NCBI GenBank assembly: GCA_021107755.1 | Contig: JAIOSF010000033.1 | Span: forward strand, 1 to 63,352 | DNA length: 63,352 nt | From: Arcobacteraceae bacterium | Lineage (GTDB): Bacteria > Campylobacterota > Campylobacteria > Campylobacterales > Arcobacteraceae | Reading direction: 5' to 3' | Part shown: piece by piece, positions 5,672 through 48,665 of the stretch | Numbering within the stretch: the first letter of the stretch is position 1 | Layout of the letters: every line of letters starts with the position of its first letter | Program-made: the position numbers and the translations under genes | Notes under the pieces: model-generated | Databases searched by the model: none | Seen by the model: the letters and a program-made list of their open reading frames with translations, nothing else | What the model was told of the DNA's origin: nothing

Positions 5672-6112
5672 TTAATATTTGTAACCATCACCTGGAACAG
5701 CAAGTCTCCATGTAGACTTACCTTCTTCTTTTTGTTGTAAAGCACTTAAACCAAAAGTACAAGCTCTAGCAGCTGCATATTCAATTGGAAATTTATCTTT
5801 TGTTGCTTTCCCTTTGAAATCTTTTGGAGTAACTGTTTTAGCTCCACTTTTAAGACCTTCTTCAACAGCAATAATTAAATCACTATTATTAACACCAAGT
5901 CTTCTAAATTCAACTTTTTCTTTGATAGCTGATGCATTATATACTTTTGCATTAGCTAAAACTGTTTCAATTCCATGTTTGCTTACATTACAAACATCTC
6001 TTTGATCTAGTTTTAGAGAAGCTGCTGGAGTTAGACTATCAGATCCACCCATACATCCTGCTAAAGAAAATGCTACGATTGAAGTTATTGCTAAACTATA
6101 TATTTTTTTCAT
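5672..6112 (-). CDS. Sox cluster lipoprotein, SoxK (SoxAX-binding protein)-like
   Basis: A 146-residue protein with a lipoprotein leader (VAFSLAGC). The mature part has two further cysteines (DVCNVS and ARACTFG) and ends WRLAVPGDGYKY. I do not recognise it with certainty. Position is the main argument: in green sulfur bacteria the order is soxX-Y-Z-A-K-B, where SoxK (SAXB) binds SoxAX and stimulates it, and here a small exported protein sits in the same slot. The gap to soxA is 11 nt. An anchoring role for SoxAX at the membrane is inferred. Confidence 0.6.
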   Translation of the reverse strand: MKKIYSLAITSIVAFSLAGCMGGSDSLTPAASLKLDQRDVCNVSKHGIETVLANAKVYNASAIKEKVEFRRLGVNNSDLIIAVEEGLKSGAKTVTPKDFKGKATKDKFPIEYAAARACTFGLSALQQKEEGKSTWRLAVPGDGYKY

Positions 6113-6123
6113 CTTTTCCTCTC

Positions 6124-7038
6124 CTATTTTCTTATATCTGGACCGTCAACAGCCATTCCATTTGACATATATGCCATAAAGTATAGTAACTCTTTCATAG
6201 TTTTACTACTTGGTTTTGGTGGGTTTTGACCTTGATCTTTAACACAACCTTCCATTCTTCTTTCAAGTGTTCCTAAACCTTGCCATTTTAGTCTATAAAC
6301 TGGGAAGTGTGTAGTGTGACCTAAAAGTTGCGATAAAGACTCATTTCTAACTCTTTGTGCTGCACCTTGAACATGACATGTTGCACAAGAAAGATTTAAG
6401 TAACCTCTTTGAGTATAGTAAAATTCTTTACCTCTCTCATAAGCTGCTGCTGCTTCTGCACTTTCGATTTTTACATTAACTTTTTTTTCTGCTTCTTTTG
6501 TGCTATTTGCAATAAAAGCTTGAAATTTTGCCATATCACCTTTTTTCTCATTCCATTTTTTTTCACCGTTTGATGTAATACATTCATTTACAGCTTGAGT
6601 TAATGAAACAACTTCTTTTCTTGACTCATCAAACATTGGGTAGTCTCCACCAATTGTTGGATCAGGAAAACAGATAGCAAGTGAGTTACCATTTGCAAAT
6701 TTTTTCTCATAAAGTGCTGCACCAGCATCTATAGCATCTTCATATGGTGGCATCTCTTTAATCTCTTCGTAAGTTGCAATACCAGCACGATTAAATGCAT
6801 AGTTACCAATACCAAAATCCATATGTTTAATATCTTTTTTAATATTGTTTTTTAATTCATCTTCTGTTGAATATGGGAAAAATGTCGCTGCATTTTTTTC
6901 TGGGTCTGCAAACTTCGCTTCAAAATATTTAATAAGCTCAGTTTTATCTTTTTCAGCTTGAGCATTAAAAGAGTTTGCACTTAAAGTACAAGCTGCTAAT
7001 GCTACGAATGCAGAAGCTTTTACAATTTTTAATAACAT
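6124..7038 (-). CDS. soxA: Sulfur-oxidising cytochrome SoxA (mono-haem form)
   Basis: SoxA is the catalytic subunit of SoxAX, which oxidatively joins thiosulfate to the SoxY cysteine. The 304 residues have a Sec leader. A single haem motif, CATCH, is at residues 218-222. The persulfide/haem-ligand cysteine is seen as RRMEGCV, Cys265. The N-terminal half keeps the cytochrome-like layout but has no CxxCH; two cysteines (LAICFPDP and NECITS) probably form a disulfide instead, so this is the mono-haem type. It follows soxZ by 62 nt and precedes the SoxK-like gene by 11 nt. Confidence 0.95.
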   Translation of the reverse strand: MLLKIVKASAFVALAACTLSANSFNAQAEKDKTELIKYFEAKFADPEKNAATFFPYSTEDELKNNIKKDIKHMDFGIGNYAFNRAGIATYEEIKEMPPYEDAIDAGAALYEKKFANGNSLAICFPDPTIGGDYPMFDESRKEVVSLTQAVNECITSNGEKKWNEKKGDMAKFQAFIANSTKEAEKKVNVKIESAEAAAAYERGKEFYYTQRGYLNLSCATCHVQGAAQRVRNESLSQLLGHTTHFPVYRLKWQGLGTLERRMEGCVKDQGQNPPKPSSKTMKELLYFMAYMSNGMAVDGPDIRK

Positions 7039-38891: not shown

Positions 38892-40073
38892 TTAACTAGC
38901 TTTTTTATTTGAAAAATCTGTTTTTTGCTTTATCTCTTTACACTTTTCTAATAATTTATTATCCGATTTTAAATGTTGTTTAATTGAGTTTTTTAAAGCT
39001 ATTGATAAAAAAGTAGGCACTGCGTTACCAATTTGCAAATTTTTTGAACTTCTTGAACCATAGAAAATATAGTTGTCTGGGAAACATTGTATTCTTGCAC
39101 CCTCTCTCGTTGTTAATGGTCTTGGTGCTTTTGGATGGATACACCTTGAAGATGAGGGTGTACTTAAATTTCTCGTTATTGTTGGGGCTGGTCTCTCCCA
39201 CCATAGTCTACAATAGGTATTTTTAAATCCACTTGTTGGTCTTAATTCTTTAGGAACATCTTGTGGTGTTCCACCATCGGGTAAGCATTCCATAAGTTTT
39301 ACCAATTTCTCATTATTTTTTGGTGAATTATGATCCATCAGTTTCTCAGGTGCTTTATCTCTCATTAGTTTTTGAAATTCATTATTAGGTTTACTACTAT
39401 ATTCAAAGCTTTCTTCATTACTTTTAATAAATGGTAAATCACTTATTGCTTCTGACAACGATAAATATGGTTGTAATTCTTGGTTAAAAATATTATCATC
39501 ATCATCTGAGTTACGATGTGTTTTATTTGGATATTCGAAATCTTGATTTAATTTTGTACCAATTATTATTACTCTTTCTCTAATTTGTGGTACACCATAA
39601 TCTGCTGAATTTAAAACTTCATATTTTACTTTGTATCCTAATGATTCAAAAAGTGATAAAATTGTTTTTAGCAATTCACCTTTTTGCATTGATAAAAGAC
39701 CCTTTACATTTTCAAATAAAAATACTTTAGGGTTTAATTCTTCCAAAACTCTATAATATTCTTGAAATAATTTTCCTCTTGGATCATTTATTAATCTTTT
39801 TCCAACAGTTGAAAATGCTTGACAAGGTGGACCACCAACAATCAAGTCAATATCACCTTTTTTAATTCCTAAATCACTGTTAATATTTTTAAGTCCAAAA
39901 TCTTTTATATCGCAATTATACATTTTTACATTTGGATGGTTTAATGAATATGCTTTAGCCATATCAGGCAGTAGTTCATTTGCTGCTACAATTTCAAAAT
40001 TGTCATCATGAGCAAATCCATAACTAAGCCCACCAACTCCAGAAAATAAATCTAATACTTTAAATTTATGCAC
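38892..40073 (-). CDS. DNA (cytosine-5-)-methyltransferase
   Basis: A 393-residue C5-cytosine methyltransferase. Motif I is VLDLFSGVGGLSYGF (AdoMet site), motif IV GGPPCQAFS with the catalytic cysteine, motif VI LFENVKG, motif VIII QIRERVIIIG, and motif X QIGNAVP near the C-terminus. The target-recognition region lies between VIII and X (about 200-330) and includes SGFKNTYCRLWWERPAPTI. The recognition sequence cannot be read by eye. It follows a 100-residue gene by 6 nt, and a 144-residue gene lies before that. No full-size restriction enzyme is recognisable. Confidence 0.93.
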   Translation of the reverse strand: MHKFKVLDLFSGVGGLSYGFAHDDNFEIVAANELLPDMAKAYSLNHPNVKMYNCDIKDFGLKNINSDLGIKKGDIDLIVGGPPCQAFSTVGKRLINDPRGKLFQEYYRVLEELNPKVFLFENVKGLLSMQKGELLKTILSLFESLGYKVKYEVLNSADYGVPQIRERVIIIGTKLNQDFEYPNKTHRNSDDDDNIFNQELQPYLSLSEAISDLPFIKSNEESFEYSSKPNNEFQKLMRDKAPEKLMDHNSPKNNEKLVKLMECLPDGGTPQDVPKELRPTSGFKNTYCRLWWERPAPTITRNLSTPSSSRCIHPKAPRPLTTREGARIQCFPDNYIFYGSRSSKNLQIGNAVPTFLSIALKNSIKQHLKSDNKLLEKCKEIKQKTDFSNKKAS

Positions 40074-40079
40074 ATTTAA

Positions 40080-40382
40080 TTATTTATTAATATTTTTAAT
40101 TGTTTTTTCAATAAATCCAGCAGAAATAGTACCATCCGTAGGATTGAAATCAATAGTAGTACATGATAATTTAAGATGAGTACAAATTAGGTCAGCACTT
40201 TCTTTTTTAGTAAGTTTATTATCTAAATTTAGATATTTGCAAACTTCTTGTAATAATTCTTTAGTAATAGTTCCATTTTTAGGATTAAATATATCATTAT
40301 TAATATCACATCCTATTTTTGTACATAATTCTTCTACTAATGTAGGTTTCGGTATCTTTGATGTTGGTATTCCTCTAGGCAT
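40080..40382 (-). CDS. Small protein with two tandem helical modules
   Basis: A 100-residue protein with strong ribosome site AAAGGAG before ATG. After a basic, proline-rich start (MPRGIPTSKIPKP), two related modules of about 40 residues follow: EELCTKIGCDIN...FNPKNGTITKELLQEV and ADLICTHLKLSC...FNPTDGTISAGFIEKT. Both share ...IC/LC..., FNPxxGTI and an acidic helix. The function is unknown. It is placed between the 144-residue gene and the methyltransferase, in one transcript, so a role in control or restriction is possible. Confidence 0.65.
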   Translation of the reverse strand: MPRGIPTSKIPKPTLVEELCTKIGCDINNDIFNPKNGTITKELLQEVCKYLNLDNKLTKKESADLICTHLKLSCTTIDFNPTDGTISAGFIEKTIKNINK

Positions 40383-40401
40383 AAAGCTCCTTTATTGTAT
40401 A

Positions 40402-40836
40402 TCAATTTGTTACATTATCATTATAGCAAATTAATGATATATCTTCAAGGCTAACTTCAAATATTTTACTCAATACTTTAAGAAAATAATTTGAAATAAT
40501 ATATCCTCTCATCCATGAAAAATACACTTGTTCTGGTCTTCTACCTTGATTATTTAATCTTTTTATGATGTCATTATCTTTTAGTTTCTTGAAAACCAAT
40601 TCTACATTATCAGTGCAAAATTCATCTATTTTTTGTATATTAATATCTTTTGAAACTAAAGAATTTATTTTTTTAATGATCGAAACTAATCTAGTATTTA
40701 ATAAGTTTATATAATTGTAATCAACAGTTGGGATAATGTCTTTTCCAGCAAAAAAACTTTTTACATCACCTTGATTTGTAAAACCTAGCTCTTTTCTATA
40801 TTCTTTAAAATATTGTGTTGTTATTAATGTACTCAT
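40402..40836 (-). CDS. Unknown protein, first gene of the methyltransferase cassette
   Basis: A 144-residue mostly helical cytosolic protein. The segment GRRPEQVYFSWMRGYIIS is distinctive and gives a faint impression of a restriction-endonuclease N-terminal half, but the PD-(D/E)xK catalytic motif is not present and the protein is short. It may be the remnant or one subunit of a restriction enzyme, or a controller. It precedes the 100-residue gene by 19 nt and probably opens the three-gene transcript. Confidence 0.55.
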   Translation of the reverse strand: MSTLITTQYFKEYRKELGFTNQGDVKSFFAGKDIIPTVDYNYINLLNTRLVSIIKKINSLVSKDINIQKIDEFCTDNVELVFKKLKDNDIIKRLNNQGRRPEQVYFSWMRGYIISNYFLKVLSKIFEVSLEDISLICYNDNVTN

Positions 40837-40975
40837 TATACTATTAATCCTTTTTATGTTTACGATTTTATCTAAAGTTTACTATTGATTTTATAAATTG
40901 AAAATCTGTAAAATATACTTTTATCAGACAATTATTTATTGTGTATTATATACAAGGTACTATAAAATACTTGTA

Positions 40976-41572
40976 TTAGTCTATTTTACTAATATAATCC
41001 CCAATAAGGTTTGTTTGTGTAAGGCTATTTTTTGGTTTCATACTTACACTATCTAGCTTCTTGATAAAATATAAGCTATTTTCTACATCATATATTTTTA
41101 ATAGGTCATTAAAAAGCTTCCCTTTTGTATCAAAGATAAAAACATCTTGTTTGTTTAATGAAAACCAGATTAAACCCACTTCATATCTATCATTCACTTG
41201 GTATTTTGTAAATTTAGTAAAATCATCATCAAAACTTTTTATAAATTCAAACTTTGATTTTTGAAACTCTTTTTTAATAAAGAGATCAAAACAACCTCCG
41301 GCACTTCTATTCCAATCGTGTTGATAATCTAGCTCAATCACCTCTATGTAAAGCTCTCCTAAATCTAAACTATTTGCATCTATGATAGTACTTCTAAAGA
41401 TATTTGGATCGTATAGAGTTTTTATATTCATAGTATCAAAGGTGAGTGTAAAATATTGTTCATGGGAACTATCAAGTAGTATTTGTATCGAATTTGTCTC
41501 TTTGTTGAGGACAAATCTTTCTCTTGTTGCACTTTTTATTTTATTGAATATACTGTTTAAAAATCCCATCAT
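40976..41572 (-). CDS. Hypothetical protein
   Basis: A 198-residue cytosolic protein with mixed alpha/beta composition and no signal peptide or membrane segment. Two in-frame ATGs occur at 41572 and 41569. No family is recognised; it contains a single cysteine and an acidic stretch (SFDDDFTKFTK). It follows a 64-residue CPXCG protein by 8 nt and is likely co-transcribed with it. Confidence 0.6.
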   Translation of the reverse strand: MMGFLNSIFNKIKSATRERFVLNKETNSIQILLDSSHEQYFTLTFDTMNIKTLYDPNIFRSTIIDANSLDLGELYIEVIELDYQHDWNRSAGGCFDLFIKKEFQKSKFEFIKSFDDDFTKFTKYQVNDRYEVGLIWFSLNKQDVFIFDTKGKLFNDLLKIYDVENSLYFIKKLDSVSMKPKNSLTQTNLIGDYISKID

Positions 41573-41580
41573 TTCCCTTT

Positions 41581-41775
41581 TTAAAATTCATTTCCCTCTA
41601 TAGTTCGATAATCTAAAGCGATAACTTCTAAGTTTTCAACACCATAAGTTATATCAATAGGTCTACAACACACTTCACAATCATCAATGATATTGTAAAT
41701 CCCCTCTACTCCTGTATCCAAAAGTATAGAGATATGTTCTCTACAATAAGGACATACGATAAATCTCTCTTCCAT
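41581..41775 (-). CDS. CPXCG-type cysteine-rich small protein
   Basis: A 64-residue protein with an N-terminal CPYCREH motif and a second pair CEVCCRPI, together a likely zinc ribbon. The pattern CPYC...D...DCxxCCRPI matches the CPXCG family of small metal-binding proteins. I start at ATG 41775, because AAAGGAAAACTT precedes it; the longer frame to 41799 lacks such a site. Function is unknown. Upstream lies the regulatory region of the ABC transporter. Confidence 0.75.
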   Translation of the reverse strand: MEERFIVCPYCREHISILLDTGVEGIYNIIDDCEVCCRPIDITYGVENLEVIALDYRTIEGNEF

Positions 41776-41882
41776 AAGTTTTCCTTTATTTTGATTCAAT
41801 AATGTTGTACAAATTGTATCGTAAGTAGATAAAAGGATAAGTTATAATTAAGCCCATAAGATATACAATTGCAAAATAAATA

Positions 41883-43679: not shown

Positions 43680-44498
43680 TTAATTATTCTTTAAAACTAG
43701 TAAAGCATCTCTATATATCGGTTCATCGATAAAACCATATTTCTCATCACTAAAACCAGTAATTCCTAAAGCTTGTTGTTTCTCAAATGCCTCTTTGATA
43801 TATTTTGCTCTTTGGAGAGATTCTCGATTGGTTACAAAAACTTCATTTACAACATCAACTTGCCCTGGACTTGTACACCCTTTTGAAGTAAATCCCATAG
43901 CTTTTTCTTTGAGACACCATTTTCTAAAGGTATCTAAGTCTTTGTACTCTTGGTAGATAAAAGAGACTGGATGTAGCCCAGCTATTTTACTATCTACTAA
44001 AAACTTACTCAAGATATAATCTATAGTTGGGTTATCAAGTTGGAGTAAGTTTTGAGGTAATCCTAGAGATTCTAGTAAGTCTAAGATACCTAAAAAAACC
44101 ATAGTAACTCTTGGGTCAATTTTAAGTTGAGGTAAAAGTGCAAAAGCCTCTTTTGTCTCAATAGTTAAGTGTACTTGTATATCTGTATCGATAAGTTTCA
44201 ATGCTAACTTTACATCATCCAACGACATCACTTTTGGTATCCGTATAGCATAAGGTTTGATAGTATTAATTATCTTTATATCTTTTGCACCACAACTATC
44301 TAAACTATTTACACGAATTATCACATCACTGTTATCTCTACCTTTTAGTTTTTTCACAACAAGCTGTCGTGCAAACTCTTTATCATGAACTGCATCTTCA
44401 AGATTGACTGTAGCAAAATCTGTTTTTAAAACATCAAGTTTATCTAGATGTTTCTCTTTATCCCCTGCTACCATAAGAAATGATCTATTTTCCTTCAT
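43680..44498 (-). CDS. CitE-like HpcH/HpaI-family lyase
   Basis: A 272-residue protein of the citrate-lyase beta-subunit superfamily. Typical features are RSFLMVAGDKEKHLDK at the start, NLEDAVHDKEFAR (metal and substrate loop), VIIRVNSL, and the acidic-metal-region in VHLTIETKEA. The segment KAMGFTSKGCTSPGQVDVVNEVF is the CitE-family C-terminal landmark. No citrate-lyase alpha or gamma genes are present, so it is a stand-alone CitE-like (malyl-CoA or citramalyl-CoA lyase type). It overlaps the cytochrome c gene by 14 bases. Confidence 0.85.
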   Translation of the reverse strand: MKENRSFLMVAGDKEKHLDKLDVLKTDFATVNLEDAVHDKEFARQLVVKKLKGRDNSDVIIRVNSLDSCGAKDIKIINTIKPYAIRIPKVMSLDDVKLALKLIDTDIQVHLTIETKEAFALLPQLKIDPRVTMVFLGILDLLESLGLPQNLLQLDNPTIDYILSKFLVDSKIAGLHPVSFIYQEYKDLDTFRKWCLKEKAMGFTSKGCTSPGQVDVVNEVFVTNRESLQRAKYIKEAFEKQQALGITGFSDEKYGFIDEPIYRDALLVLKNN

Positions 44499-44907
44499 AT
44501 TTGTCCTTGTTTTTAAGATAAAAAAAGATTGATTTTAACTCCTCTGGGGTTAAAAAGTATGTTGGCATACTGTTTCCATAGGTGAGTTTCTCACATACTT
44601 GTGTACTATCAAATTTCTTTTTCGGTTTTTCAAGTTTTGGGTCTAGTGTTTGTAAAAAATTTTTATAGGTTACATTGGTGATATCTTTTGTACGGATTGT
44701 ACAGATATACTCTTTTTTCTTTACAGTATGTGTAAAAGTAGCTATGATTTTTCCCTTTGCACTTTCCCCATGACACTTACTACAGCTTATCCCTCTTGGA
44801 TTTTTATAAAGCATTTTTCCATATTCATATTGGGTGATAAAAGAGTCTTCAAAAGTTGATTTTGAAAATAGCAAAGTAGTAAATAATAAAATTGATAGTT
44901 TAATCAT
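44485..44907 (-). CDS. Periplasmic mono-haem cytochrome c
   Basis: A 140-residue protein with leader MIKLSILLFTTLLFSKSTF. The haem motif CSKCHGESAKGK follows GKMLYKNPRGIS, a class I cytochrome c start. A methionine in YGNSMPTYFLTPEELKSIFFYL is the probable sixth ligand, and two cysteines (EYICTI, TQVCEKL) could form a disulfide. It overlaps the CitE-like gene. Electron partners are unknown. Confidence 0.88.
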   Translation of the reverse strand: MIKLSILLFTTLLFSKSTFEDSFITQYEYGKMLYKNPRGISCSKCHGESAKGKIIATFTHTVKKKEYICTIRTKDITNVTYKNFLQTLDPKLEKPKKKFDSTQVCEKLTYGNSMPTYFLTPEELKSIFFYLKNKDKYEGK

Positions 44908-45254
44908 GGATACAATTTTACCAATAAGTTACTTTAGGCGGGATTTGAATATGATAATGAATATTTTATTGAGCCTTATACGAATAATATTTAGTATCGT
45001 AAACTAATACTCGTTTGGAGTGTTGTATATTTTTAAAATAATTCATAATATTTATAACCACTAATGCAATAATCCCATAATAATTTTTAAACTGAAAGAA
45101 ATAATAAAATATTATTTCTTTCAAAAAATTTGCTAATATTACTATTTGTAATTTATAGCTACTCAATTTTCTCTGATTTTTGTAAATTTGTACACAATTT
45201 GTTTTTTATCACTTTTGGTATTGTATTATGAAAAACAAAATTAAAGAGTTTTTA
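44908..45254. other. Intergenic region upstream of the response regulator
   Basis: About 350 AT-rich bases between divergent genes. A minus-strand frame of 66 residues (44966-45166) has no ribosome site and a composition typical of AT-rich noise, so I do not call it. No RNA gene, repeat or operator stands out. Confidence 0.5.
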
Positions 45255-45929
45255 ATGAGATATAAAATATTAATAGTAGAAGATGATCGTATCATTGCGA
45301 AAGATATAGAAAAAACATTAAGTAAAAAAGGCTTTAATGTTATTCAAATCACATCTAGTCATATTGAGACAATCAACTTTCTAGAAAATAATAAAGTTGA
45401 TTTAATCCTTATGGATATCAATATTAAAGGAGCTATTGACGGAATACAAAGTTGTGATGAAATAAATCAAAAGTATAATATTCCTATAATATTTATTACT
45501 GCATATAATGATATAGAAACCATATCTTTGATTAAAGACAGCTATGCCGTTGGTTACTTGCAAAAACCTTTTAAATATGCAGATTTATTGTTAAATATAT
45601 TTTTAATATTGAAGCATAATTCTCATCAACCTAAAATCATTCAAAAACATATTATTTTTCTTCAAAATGGATTTCACTATTGTTTAGAAAAGCGATTGCT
45701 TTATAAAAATAATGTAGAGGTAAATTTGTCTCAAATAGAGAAAGATATCTTATTTATTTTATGTAAAAATAAAAATAATTTTATTTCTTATGAGCAACTA
45801 TTTGAAAATGTTTGGAAAAATCAAAAATTTTGTATTAATAAAATACGAGGTTCTATTTTTAGGTTGAAACATAAGGTAGTGGATTTAAATATTATAAACA
45901 ATAAAGAGTATGGTTATAAGATAGAGTAA
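45255..45929 (+). CDS. OmpR-family response regulator
   Basis: A two-domain regulator of about 224 residues. The receiver domain shows the acidic pair in LIVEDDRII, the phospho-acceptor in LILMDINIKGAIDGIQ, and the switch lysine in YLQKPFKYADLL. The C-terminal winged-helix DNA-binding domain runs from about residue 145 and ends KEYGYKIE. I start at ATG 45255, six nt after AAAGAG, rather than at 45228. No histidine kinase is adjacent, so it is an orphan. Target genes are unknown. Confidence 0.87.
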   Translation: MRYKILIVEDDRIIAKDIEKTLSKKGFNVIQITSSHIETINFLENNKVDLILMDINIKGAIDGIQSCDEINQKYNIPIIFITAYNDIETISLIKDSYAVGYLQKPFKYADLLLNIFLILKHNSHQPKIIQKHIIFLQNGFHYCLEKRLLYKNNVEVNLSQIEKDILFILCKNKNNFISYEQLFENVWKNQKFCINKIRGSIFRLKHKVVDLNIINNKEYGYKIE

Positions 45930-46024
45930 AATTAATCTCTCTATTTTTTATAATAAAGTGAAAAACAAATTTTGTGCAAATAGTGATATTGCATAATATT
46001 ACTACATCATAAAAAGGAGAAAAA

Positions 46025-46522
46025 ATGATAAATAATACGCTAAATATGGATGGTTTAAATTTGATAAAACATTTTGAATCACTTGAACTCAATGCTTACC
46101 AAGATAGTGTTGGGGTATGGACAATAGGTTGGGGACACACAGGAGCAGATGTGATAGAAGGGAAAACAATCACAGAAGAAGAAGCAGAAAACCTATTGAA
46201 AGAAGATTTGTCAAAGTTTGAAAAAACTGTAAATAATTCTGTGACTATAGCATTAAATGAAAATCAATATGCTGCACTGGTGAGTTTTACATATAATTTA
46301 GGGATAGGAAATTTACAAAGTTCCACACTTTTAAAATTACTTAATTCAAAAGATTCTTTTAATGCGTCAAAAGAGTTTGTAAAATGGAGTAAAGCTGGTG
46401 GAAATAGATTAGAGGGATTAGTAAAAAGAAGATTATCTGAAAGAAATTTGTTTTGTTCATTTTTAGAACCAATAGTTACAGAAGTTCCTGATGATTGGGA
46501 AACAAATTATATGAATATATAA
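46025..46522 (+). CDS. Phage-type lysozyme (GH24 muramidase)
   Basis: A 165-residue T4-type lysozyme. The catalytic triad layout E-(8)-D-(5)-T is visible in KHFESLELNAYQDSVGVWTIGWGHTG (glutamate of FES, aspartate of QDS, threonine of WTI). The second half carries NQYAALVSFTYNLGIG, also typical of the family. There is no signal peptide, so release would need a holin or other route. A strong ribosome site (AAAAAGGAG) precedes the ATG. It is convergent with the DUF2589 cluster. Confidence 0.93.
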   Translation: MINNTLNMDGLNLIKHFESLELNAYQDSVGVWTIGWGHTGADVIEGKTITEEEAENLLKEDLSKFEKTVNNSVTIALNENQYAALVSFTYNLGIGNLQSSTLLKLLNSKDSFNASKEFVKWSKAGGNRLEGLVKRRLSERNLFCSFLEPIVTEVPDDWETNYMNI

Positions 46523-46530
46523 TGGATAAA

Positions 46531-46563
46531 TCAGTTAGCATAATTAAATTATACTAACTGATA
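46531..46563. terminator. Hairpin between lysozyme gene and DUF2589 cluster
   Basis: ATCAGTTAG (46531-46539) pairs with CTAACTGAT (46555-46563), and after one mismatch ATAAT/ATTAT extends the stem. The tails are A/T-rich without long T runs. It probably ends both convergent transcripts. Confidence 0.6.
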
Positions 46564-46572
46564 TGAAATATT

Positions 46573-46977
46573 TTATAAACCAGGTGCTCTCCAGTTGTGA
46601 ATCACGCTATTACCATCTTGTAAAACACCACGATAATGACAACATAAACCTGTACCATCAGTATTTCCTTGAAAGCCAGAGGCATTTTCTACTACTGTAT
46701 ATTGTCCTACTCCTGTCCATGTTACTACCCATGGTATTCTACCTACAAAATCAAAATTATTATTAGCACCTACAGTGCCAACAAAATCTCGAATATCTCC
46801 TAATGTTTGAGGATACATAAACATTACTGTATTTGGATATTCATGTTCCAGTACTTCTATTCTTGCTTGTAGAACTATACCAGCTCTATGTACAACACCA
46901 TCTAGAGTATCTTCTATCTCTCCAGTTGCCAAATTTCTTACATGCTTTGTTAAAAAAGCTTCAGTCATATTAAACAT
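46573..46977 (-). CDS. Unknown protein of the DUF2589 cluster
   Basis: A 134-residue cytosolic protein without leader or membrane segment. Its middle (RIPWVVTWTGVGQYTVVENASGFQG) is beta-rich, and a GLCCHYRG cysteine pair lies near the end. No family is recognised. The ATG follows AGGAG with 5-nt spacing. It is the last of four minus-strand genes (48475 to 46573). The beta-rich composition would suit a structural or binding protein. Confidence 0.65.
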   Translation of the reverse strand: MFNMTEAFLTKHVRNLATGEIEDTLDGVVHRAGIVLQARIEVLEHEYPNTVMFMYPQTLGDIRDFVGTVGANNNFDFVGRIPWVVTWTGVGQYTVVENASGFQGNTDGTGLCCHYRGVLQDGNSVIHNWRAPGL

Positions 46978-47000
46978 TTTTCTCTCCTATGATTTTTAAT

Positions 47001-47552
47001 TTAAAATGGAAAACTTTTTACAATATGATCATTGATTCGTGCAAAAGTTTCAGGAACATCAGAATTGATAAACTCAATTTCTATCTTTGCCATACCACCA
47101 CTATTTTTATCTCCAGATAAATCTAGTAAAATTGGTCCTTTGGGTGCATCATTAGTCTCTTTTTCAAGTGTTTTTTCTCCATCTTTTGTTTTAAAGAATT
47201 TAAAGAATCCTTGCTCTTTTTTTTCACTTTCATCTACACCTGTGAGTTTAGCTTCAAAACTTACTTTCATATTTTTTATTTTGATTGAACTTGGAGGATT
47301 AAGTGCAATTAATGGAATTTCTACATCATGGTAATTTACCTTACTATCTACAACAAAAGGGAGTTTTATATCCACATTTTTAGGCATTCCCAAATCTTCA
47401 ATACTAATACCCTCTTTTTCCATAGTATCTTTATCTTTGTTGAGATAGAAATACCTTCCTAATGCTCTCATATGCTGTTGCTCTGAGATCTTTTGTGCTT
47501 CTACAACTGAATTATGTATCGCTTTTAATACATTATCTAAAAAAACTGCCAT
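47001..47552 (-). CDS. DUF2589-domain protein, second copy
   Basis: A 183-residue protein that I assign to DUF2589. It starts with helices (FLDNVLKAIHNSVVEAQKISEQ), followed by a beta domain with HDVEIPLIALNPPSSIKIKNMKVSF and the tail IEIEFINSDVPETFARINDHIV. The same three blocks occur in the protein at 47888-48475 in the same order. No leader, no membrane segment, no catalytic motif. The ATG follows AAAGGAAAGTATA. The family has no established function known to me. Confidence 0.75.
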   Translation of the reverse strand: MAVFLDNVLKAIHNSVVEAQKISEQQHMRALGRYFYLNKDKDTMEKEGISIEDLGMPKNVDIKLPFVVDSKVNYHDVEIPLIALNPPSSIKIKNMKVSFEAKLTGVDESEKKEQGFFKFFKTKDGEKTLEKETNDAPKGPILLDLSGDKNSGGMAKIEIEFINSDVPETFARINDHIVKSFPF

Positions 47553-47564
47553 TATACTTTCCTT

Positions 47565-47819
47565 TTATTTTACTTCTCTTTCAAATCCTATATGATAAGT
47601 TGTTGCCTGCATGGTGAATTGATGCTCTCCAACTTGAAATATACCAAAGCTAATATCTTTTCCTATAATTTTCCCTTTTGGATAACCATTAAGGTAATCA
47701 TTTAGCTGTTTTACCTGTTTATCTTTTGTTTCATCTGTCATAGGATTATTTGGGTCAATATTTCCTACTGTTATTCTTTTTATGAATTTAATATCAGACA
47801 TTGCAAACGACTTTTCCAT
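47565..47819 (-). CDS. Small protein between the two DUF2589 genes
   Basis: An 84-residue soluble protein with end IIGKDISFGIFQVGEHQFTMQATTYHIGFERE (given in part as landmark), which looks beta-stranded, and a first half with NDYLNGYPKG. I start at 47819 because AAAAGGA lies 5 nt upstream; a second ATG at 47801 has no ribosome site. No family is recognised. It lies 12 nt before the second DUF2589 gene and after the hairpin at 47846-47874. Confidence 0.65.
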   Translation of the reverse strand: MEKSFAMSDIKFIKRITVGNIDPNNPMTDETKDKQVKQLNDYLNGYPKGKIIGKDISFGIFQVGEHQFTMQATTYHIGFEREVK

Positions 47820-47845
47820 TCTATTCCTTTTTATTTCTTTATGTA

Positions 47846-47874
47846 ATACACACCTTACTTTTTAAGGTGTGTAT
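47846..47874. other. Strong hairpin inside the DUF2589 operon
   Basis: ATACACACCTTA (47846-47857), 5-nt loop, TAAGGTGTGTAT (47863-47874) form a perfect 12-bp stem. On the minus strand no T run follows, so it is not a classical terminator. It sits right after the first DUF2589 gene and could stabilise its message or reduce downstream expression. Confidence 0.75.
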
Positions 47875-47887
47875 ATCTAAAATACTT

Positions 47888-48475
47888 TTACTTAGGTGGT
47901 GTTACTGGTGGAGCACTTGGTGTACCACCAGCTGGAACAATTGCTCTATTCATAATATCAAGAACTCTTGCTAATCCTTCTGGCATACCATGATCCATTG
48001 CTTTAACTTCTACATGATATTTTGCAGATTTATCTGTACTTCTTGTATTCTCTTTATGTGCTGATACTGAACCAGACACTGTAACACTAAGACTAAATGG
48101 TCCATAACCAACTTTTCCAGTACCTGAAAAAGAACCTTGTTTATCACTAGATTCTTTTGAGGTATCAGAAGTTTTAATCTCCATGTCAAAAGTGATATCT
48201 ACAAGATCTACTTTTAAACTTGGAATTTGTACTATTGCCAATAAAGGAACATCAATGTCAACTTTTTGCTCTTTTCCATCAGAGTCTAAAACATTATATG
48301 CAAATGCTGCTGTTCTAACATTTTTATTCCCCTTATCATCTGTAGCAAATCCTACCTTGTCAATAAAATCTGCTGTTGTTTGTGCCAAATTAAGATTTGC
48401 ATCACAAGCCGCTGTTAATGGTGCTCCAATTAAGGATGCCATAGGTAAACCTTTAAATTCGTCTCCTAGTCCCAT
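47888..48475 (-). CDS. DUF2589-domain protein, first copy
   Basis: A 195-residue soluble protein that fits DUF2589: helix GLPMASLIGAPLTAACDANLNLAQTTADFI, then a beta domain with VDIDVPLLAIVQIPSLKVDLVDITF, a glycine/serine-rich hairpin (GTGKVGYGPFSLSVTVSG), and the tail VEVKAMDHGMPEGLARVLDIMNRAI. It ends in a proline-rich stretch. No leader. The ribosome site is excellent (AAAAGGAGGAAGAG ATG), the best in the cluster, suggesting high expression. It opens the four-gene minus-strand transcript convergent to the lysozyme. Confidence 0.78.
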   Translation of the reverse strand: MGLGDEFKGLPMASLIGAPLTAACDANLNLAQTTADFIDKVGFATDDKGNKNVRTAAFAYNVLDSDGKEQKVDIDVPLLAIVQIPSLKVDLVDITFDMEIKTSDTSKESSDKQGSFSGTGKVGYGPFSLSVTVSGSVSAHKENTRSTDKSAKYHVEVKAMDHGMPEGLARVLDIMNRAIVPAGGTPSAPPVTPPK

Positions 48476-48665
48476 CTCTTCCTCCTTTTAAATTTTTACC
48501 TAATCACAAAATAAATAATTTATATGATTAAGTTAATGAAAGTATTACATTCATAAATTTGTATCTAATTTGTTTTTTAAAGATGATGAGTATTTTATAT
48601 TTAATAAGATTCATAGTAAATTTTGGATAAAATCGCAAATATTATAGATACAATTAGGAGCAAGT

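Follow-up and report, generated by a model that had tools for sequence, protein, structure and literature searches.

A DUF2589/p84 core co-inherited with interchangeable peptidoglycan hydrolases, and its possible role in release through the cell wall

We analyzed a 63,352-nucleotide stretch (the window) of contig JAIOSF010000033.1, Arcobacteraceae-like DNA (Campylobacterota) in which a lysozyme gene lies convergent with genes for two proteins of the Pfam family DUF2589 (PF11655), DUF2589-A and DUF2589-B, and for an 84-residue protein, p84. These three proteins form a core that is co-inherited across bacterial phyla, and a peptidoglycan hydrolase of interchangeable family, often with a regulator, is inherited together with it. 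We propose, at a probability of about 0.45, that the core builds a regulated cytosolic assembly, made together with the endolysin and released or deployed through an opening of the wall, in the manner of a type 10 secretion system (T10SS). Both large core proteins belong to a family with no assigned function, and no description of DUF2589 pairing with p84 and hydrolases was found in the literature searched.

Recurrence of the core and its hydrolases

Among 84,980 species genomes scanned, 80 loci were recovered, which, judged from organism names and general knowledge, presumably span nine phyla: Pseudomonadota, Campylobacterota, Desulfobacterota, Myxococcota, Bacteroidota, Spirochaetota, Bacillota, Verrucomicrobiota, and Deferribacterota. 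A p84 homologue adjoins DUF2589 in 77 of the 80 loci, the remaining three being L018 and two on short or truncated contigs (L065, L073). DUF2589-A is adjoined by a DUF2589-B homologue in nearly all of them; the main gene orders are B-A-p84 and B-p84-C-A, and the order in the window is A-p84-B. The module loci have dedicated regulators of the two-component, LuxR or AraC type and lie in ordinary chromosomal surroundings. Within Campylobacterota the distribution is patchy, since PF11655 is present in only 16 of 397 genomes. All 12 p84 genes in this set occur in genomes with a DUF2589 pair, and four genomes have DUF2589 without p84; among these p84-less copies, that of G257 contains in-frame stops and G168 gives matches in fragments only. 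The third gene of the Campylobacter and Helicobacter loci, which encodes about 130 residues, was considered as a further DUF2589 member and found unsupported (hhalign probability 0.7%).

The hydrolases are concentrated close to the module. Hydrolase profiles matched 58 of the 504 genes within 2.5 kb of it, versus none of 849 farther genes in the same loci (Fisher p ~1.5e-26, a value inflated by the kinship of related species), with matches in 57 of 84 loci; the profiles were seeded from near genes, and the control therefore shows that these particular families, rather than all hydrolases in the flanks, concentrate at the module. When a Flavobacterium family whose match to a phage endolysin profile is confined to its C-terminal part is excluded, a hydrolase is found in 50 of 80 loci and in 24 of 43 genera or lineages. 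By Pfam, the enzymes fall into seven unrelated families (GH19, GH108, GH24, PF11860 muramidase, Amidase_2, Amidase_3, and GH25), so the association is one of activity, not of descent. Among the hydrolases screened, none has an N-terminal hydrophobic segment except the GH25 enzyme of G192, which appears to have one. The original prediction, made from the window's sequence, had proposed looking for DUF2589–hydrolase linkage in other genomes, and this linkage recurs across phyla; of the two outcomes it had named as damaging, absence of such linkage and a lone phage remnant in one strain, neither was observed.

Other enzymes also stand beside the module, namely a Tle1-type phospholipase, a patatin, EndoU (in seven loci), and a C58 peptidase, along with nuclease and metalloprotease matches below threshold. 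Nine Luteibacter and Rhodanobacter loci with GH108 encode a phage-type holin (phrog_2359, 3.2e-12). In 23 loci, either GH19 or GH108 is accompanied by a secreted protein family (about 130 residues, no Pfam match), whose occurrence with both argues for a system component and against immunity to one enzyme; a role as a specific lysozyme inhibitor was rejected on the same grounds. The Campylobacter and Helicobacter loci encode a separate family of small secreted proteins.

Further neighbours recur in particular lineages. In Arcobacteraceae and Burkholderiales, a gene for a TAXI/NMT1-type periplasmic receptor adjoins the module (L119, 9364–10623; L118, 6856–8172; L030, L040, L051, and L053, the last with an NMT1_3 match at E 1.6e-9), which suggests a conserved sensor. 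Burkholderiales loci L036, L043, L023, and L029 have in common upstream genes for proteins of about 350 and 180 residues, some with a winged-helix regulator. In Campylobacter, the GH19 protein of one locus has a domain of about 110 residues fused to its N terminus; two further loci encode this domain by itself, without GH19 (L139, 5759–6115; L141, 6323–6637; L143, 4669–5610). The dufB-dufA pair is additionally carried by more than 20 viral contigs (L090–L116, IMG/VR), adjoining RecE/RecT-like genes (L101) or a terminase (L113), and the viral DUF2589 proteins have no PHROG match. On one of these, the 194-kb contig L098, p84 is encoded directly after DUF2589-A (6001–6908).

The island in the window and its Arcobacteraceae relatives

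In the window, the module is part of an inserted island of about 3.7 kb (44908–48665, no strand assigned), located between a cytochrome-c-like gene (44485–44907, reverse strand) and gatA (from 48666, forward strand). The corresponding site is empty in three relatives of the same family, one congener and two members of other genera (L168, L171, L172), where the cytochrome-c-like gene and gatA are only 56–121 bp apart. The six genes of the island encode a PhoB-type response regulator, a GH24 lysozyme, a 134-residue protein (p134), DUF2589-B, p84, and DUF2589-A, with profile identities taken from a Pfam search of the window's open reading frames (ORFs). The regulator (45228–45929, forward strand) combines a receiver domain (PF00072, 4.6e-23) with a PhoB/OmpR-type winged helix (PF00486, 2.9e-7). 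The original prediction had named the other five genes and placed them correctly, in agreement with Pfam, but its 2.5-kb island was too small, as the unit also takes in this regulator.

The T4-type lysozyme (46025–46522, forward strand; PF00959, E 1.5e-48, 164.7 bits) retains the triad E-x8-D-x5-T (E18, D27, T33), as read from its sequence. It faces an operon on the reverse strand that begins with the gene for DUF2589-A (dufA, 47888–48475; PF11655, 1.3e-45, 156 bits) and continues with those for p84 (47565–47819; no Pfam family, predicted beta-alpha-beta-beta), DUF2589-B (dufB, 47001–47552; PF11655, 8.7e-20, 72.1 bits), and p134, an orphan in the variable fourth slot (46573–46977; no Pfam family). 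Both DUF2589 proteins exceed the curated PF11655 cut-off of 23 bits, and an alignment of 59 homologues of DUF2589-A contains invariant columns. Between the convergent genes, an inverted repeat with 16-nt arms (46530–46562, unstranded), folding at −12.0 kcal/mol, is probably a terminator common to both. Two further features claimed at the outset were borne out: purine-rich ribosome sites precede all five ORFs (AAGGAG, AGGAG, AAGGA, AAGGA, AGGAGG), and the five proteins, lysozyme included, have no signal peptide and no strongly hydrophobic segment, either N-terminal or internal. Relative to the copy in G422, dN/dS is about 0.14 for dufA, 0.03 for p84, 0.09 for dufB, and 0.17 for the lysozyme gene, showing that all four are under purifying selection. 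No integrase, terminase, capsid or tail gene occurs in the six-gene island or in its flanking cytochrome-c-like gene and gatA; together with the empty site and the inheritance of lysozyme and DUF2589 as one unit, this agrees with the earlier view that the island is not a prophage. A lone phage remnant is ruled out by the empty site and by recurrence across loci.

Genome G422 (L135) carries the module with a convergent GH24 lysozyme and a regulator at another genomic place, at protein identities to the window of 83% for the lysozyme, 90–94% for the core, and 53% for the regulator; it has no p134, and a 46-residue ORF fills that gap. The loci of G028 and G044 comprise a regulator, a GH24 lysozyme (66 and 62% identical to that of the window, the former located by tblastn), a TAXI/NMT1-type receptor gene, dufA, p84, and dufB, and their fourth slot holds unrelated proteins of 131 and 125 residues, respectively, each with a hydrophobic stretch at its start. 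Module-side regulators in three other Arcobacteraceae are 48–53% identical to the one in the window. A second architecture, dufB-dufA-p84-134 aa-X-GH24, is found in G355 and G377. A GH24 gene is thus present in the locus of all six p84-bearing Arcobacteraceae, and the only two strong GH24 matches (E < 1e-40) among 60 relatives are those of the two DUF2589 genomes sampled.

What varies among the Arcobacteraceae loci is the fourth gene. Searches with p134 found no match in phages or in the other relatives, and a single weak one on a plasmid (41% identity across 50 residues, E 0.05). Both small proteins had originally been put forward as linked partners; the 84-residue protein proved to be a core component, while, within the searches made, the 134-residue protein occurs in this genome only. 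The intercistronic region between dufA and p84 contains a hairpin with perfect 12-nt arms (47846–47874, reverse strand). Hairpins of −14 to −17 kcal/mol occupy the same place after dufA in L135, L118, and L119, so that the element occurs in all four first-architecture genomes, with a different stem sequence in G028. This conserved hairpin could give dufA surplus expression, like that of a major structural protein.

Outside the island, at 38892–41799, the window encodes a type II cytosine-5 DNA methyltransferase (PADLOC MTase_II, E 1.4e-106), followed by proteins of 100, 144, and 198 residues. The sole candidate match for its restriction partner (0.0047) falls on the 100-residue protein.

Release through the wall and rival explanations

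We hypothesize that the core proteins come together in the cytosol as a hetero-assembly, which may be loaded with enzymes or with the product of the variable fourth slot, and that the response regulator would turn on core and endolysin jointly. The endolysin would open the wall, aided by a holin in loci that have a gene for it, as in Luteibacter, or by another membrane step in the window's organism, and the assembly would then be released or exported. Such a scheme would resemble type 10 (holin/endolysin) release with its own dedicated cargo. Co-inheritance of the core, hydrolases near the module, the absence of export signals, the Luteibacter and Rhodanobacter holin, and purifying selection are all consistent with this reading and carry the somewhat-below-even probability given above. 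Among the options raised in the original prediction, a cytosolic assembly released by lysis is the best-fitting one.

In Yersinia entomophaga, the PhoB-like regulator RoeA controls a holin/endolysin/spanin cassette, YenLC, which frees a 2.46-MDa toxin complex via lysis of a subpopulation (PMC10101115, PMC10847048). Like YenLC and Serratia ChiWXYZ, the window combines a chromosomal phage-type endolysin outside a prophage with a dedicated PhoB-like regulator. T10SSs move large cytosolic proteins (PMC10847048, PMC10101115). Unlike a T10SS, the window island contains no holin and no lipoprotein or membrane-anchored small protein (spanin), and we therefore do not class it as a T10SS, although it may work like one. 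The DUF2589 loci differ further in that their hydrolase family varies and in that the fixed DUF2589/p84 core has no T10SS counterpart.

The p84 model adopts a beta-alpha-beta-beta fold (pLDDT 88.6) with no significant match in PDB or viral libraries; its best matches, which are weak (Z 4.7, Foldseek E 0.11), have an Alba-like and MinE-like arrangement. DUF2589-A is modeled (pLDDT 68) as a long N-terminal helix and strands, with a poorly resolved second half, and may need partners to fold.

Several observations weigh against the release of an assembly. The window island encodes neither holin nor spanin, and no membrane segment is present from the lysozyme to dufA. About one third of the loci have no recognized hydrolase nearby, several of them having a phospholipase, nuclease or protease instead, and the phage DUF2589 pairs have no adjoining p84 or lysin. 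A profile search for solved relatives of dufA, dufB, and p84 returned none of note, and the dufA model was too weak for a useful fold search. In the one paper found that names DUF2589, four lactate-induced DUF2589-related genes are reported for Archaeoglobus fulgidus (PMC3949148). As an archaeon, this species presumably has no murein, so the role of the core may be separable from wall cutting.

The main rival is an antibacterial effector locus, in which the enzyme is a toxin for neighbours, DUF2589 and p84 serve as carrier or adaptor, and the small secreted proteins protect the producer. The Tle1-type phospholipase, patatin, EndoU nuclease, and C58 protease beside murein hydrolases are usual effector classes of the type VI secretion system (T6SS), in whose effector–immunity cassettes murein hydrolases, Tle1 phospholipases, and nucleases are likewise interchangeable and lack signal peptides; the variable fourth slot and the secreted small proteins, in 23 loci and as the separate Campylobacter/Helicobacter family, fit as well. 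However, the sheath protein VipB/TssC (PF05943) is absent from the window's genome, on which ground a T6SS accessory was rejected, and a T6SS is unexpected in Brachyspira, Lachnospiraceae, and others. One secreted family accompanies GH19 in some loci and GH108 in others, so this partner does not follow the type of enzyme and is not hydrolase-specific immunity. With no carrier structure recognized, a core that is not a known T6SS adaptor, and a window island without any signal-peptide protein, we regard effector delivery as unlikely.

Programmed lysis or abortive infection, in which the core would sense a trigger and turn the enzyme on its own cell, appears less probable still. No sensor domain was recognized, neither the dedicated regulators nor the ordinary chromosomal setting of the loci is usual for defence, and no core protein matched a PADLOC model, the lysozyme giving a weak AbiK hit (E 0.0022); defence had been among the options of the original prediction, and a known defence family was dropped for want of a core match. 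In its favour, a fixed core with exchangeable killing enzymes is typical of such systems, the phage DUF2589 pairs could be decoys, and the type II methyltransferase is encoded at a distance of about 5 kb. Phage-type hydrolases and holin, together with DUF2589 pairs in phage contigs, might point to a domesticated fragment, with DUF2589 and lysozyme left over from one phage late region. This is highly improbable, given that phage loci have no p84 or lysin beside the pair (the 194-kb contig with p84 excepted), that a constant core is paired with differing hydrolase families, that the loci examined contain no phage structural genes, and that dN/dS is 0.03–0.17.

Implications for the DUF2589 family

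A Pfam family without a function is thereby linked to a strict partner (p84), to a class of enzymes that recurs beside it, and to a regulator, and becomes a testable six-gene system. The window lysozyme belongs to a real, undescribed system, perhaps one for releasing an assembly by controlled opening of the cell, or for attacking neighbours. It is possible, though doubtful, that DUF2589-A/B and p84 constitute an undescribed assembly that spread horizontally through at least nine phyla, carrying or released with interchangeable enzymes, and thus a new kind of particle-like system for delivery or secretion that relies neither on phage tails nor on T6SS or other contractile systems. The core proteins have no relative of known function, which leaves room for such a categorically new system. 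The hosts of the module include Helicobacter, Campylobacter, and Brachyspira, as well as Pseudomonas, Massilia, Paraburkholderia, and marine bacteria; if it does serve release or delivery, it would be among very few such systems outside contractile and classical secretion machines.
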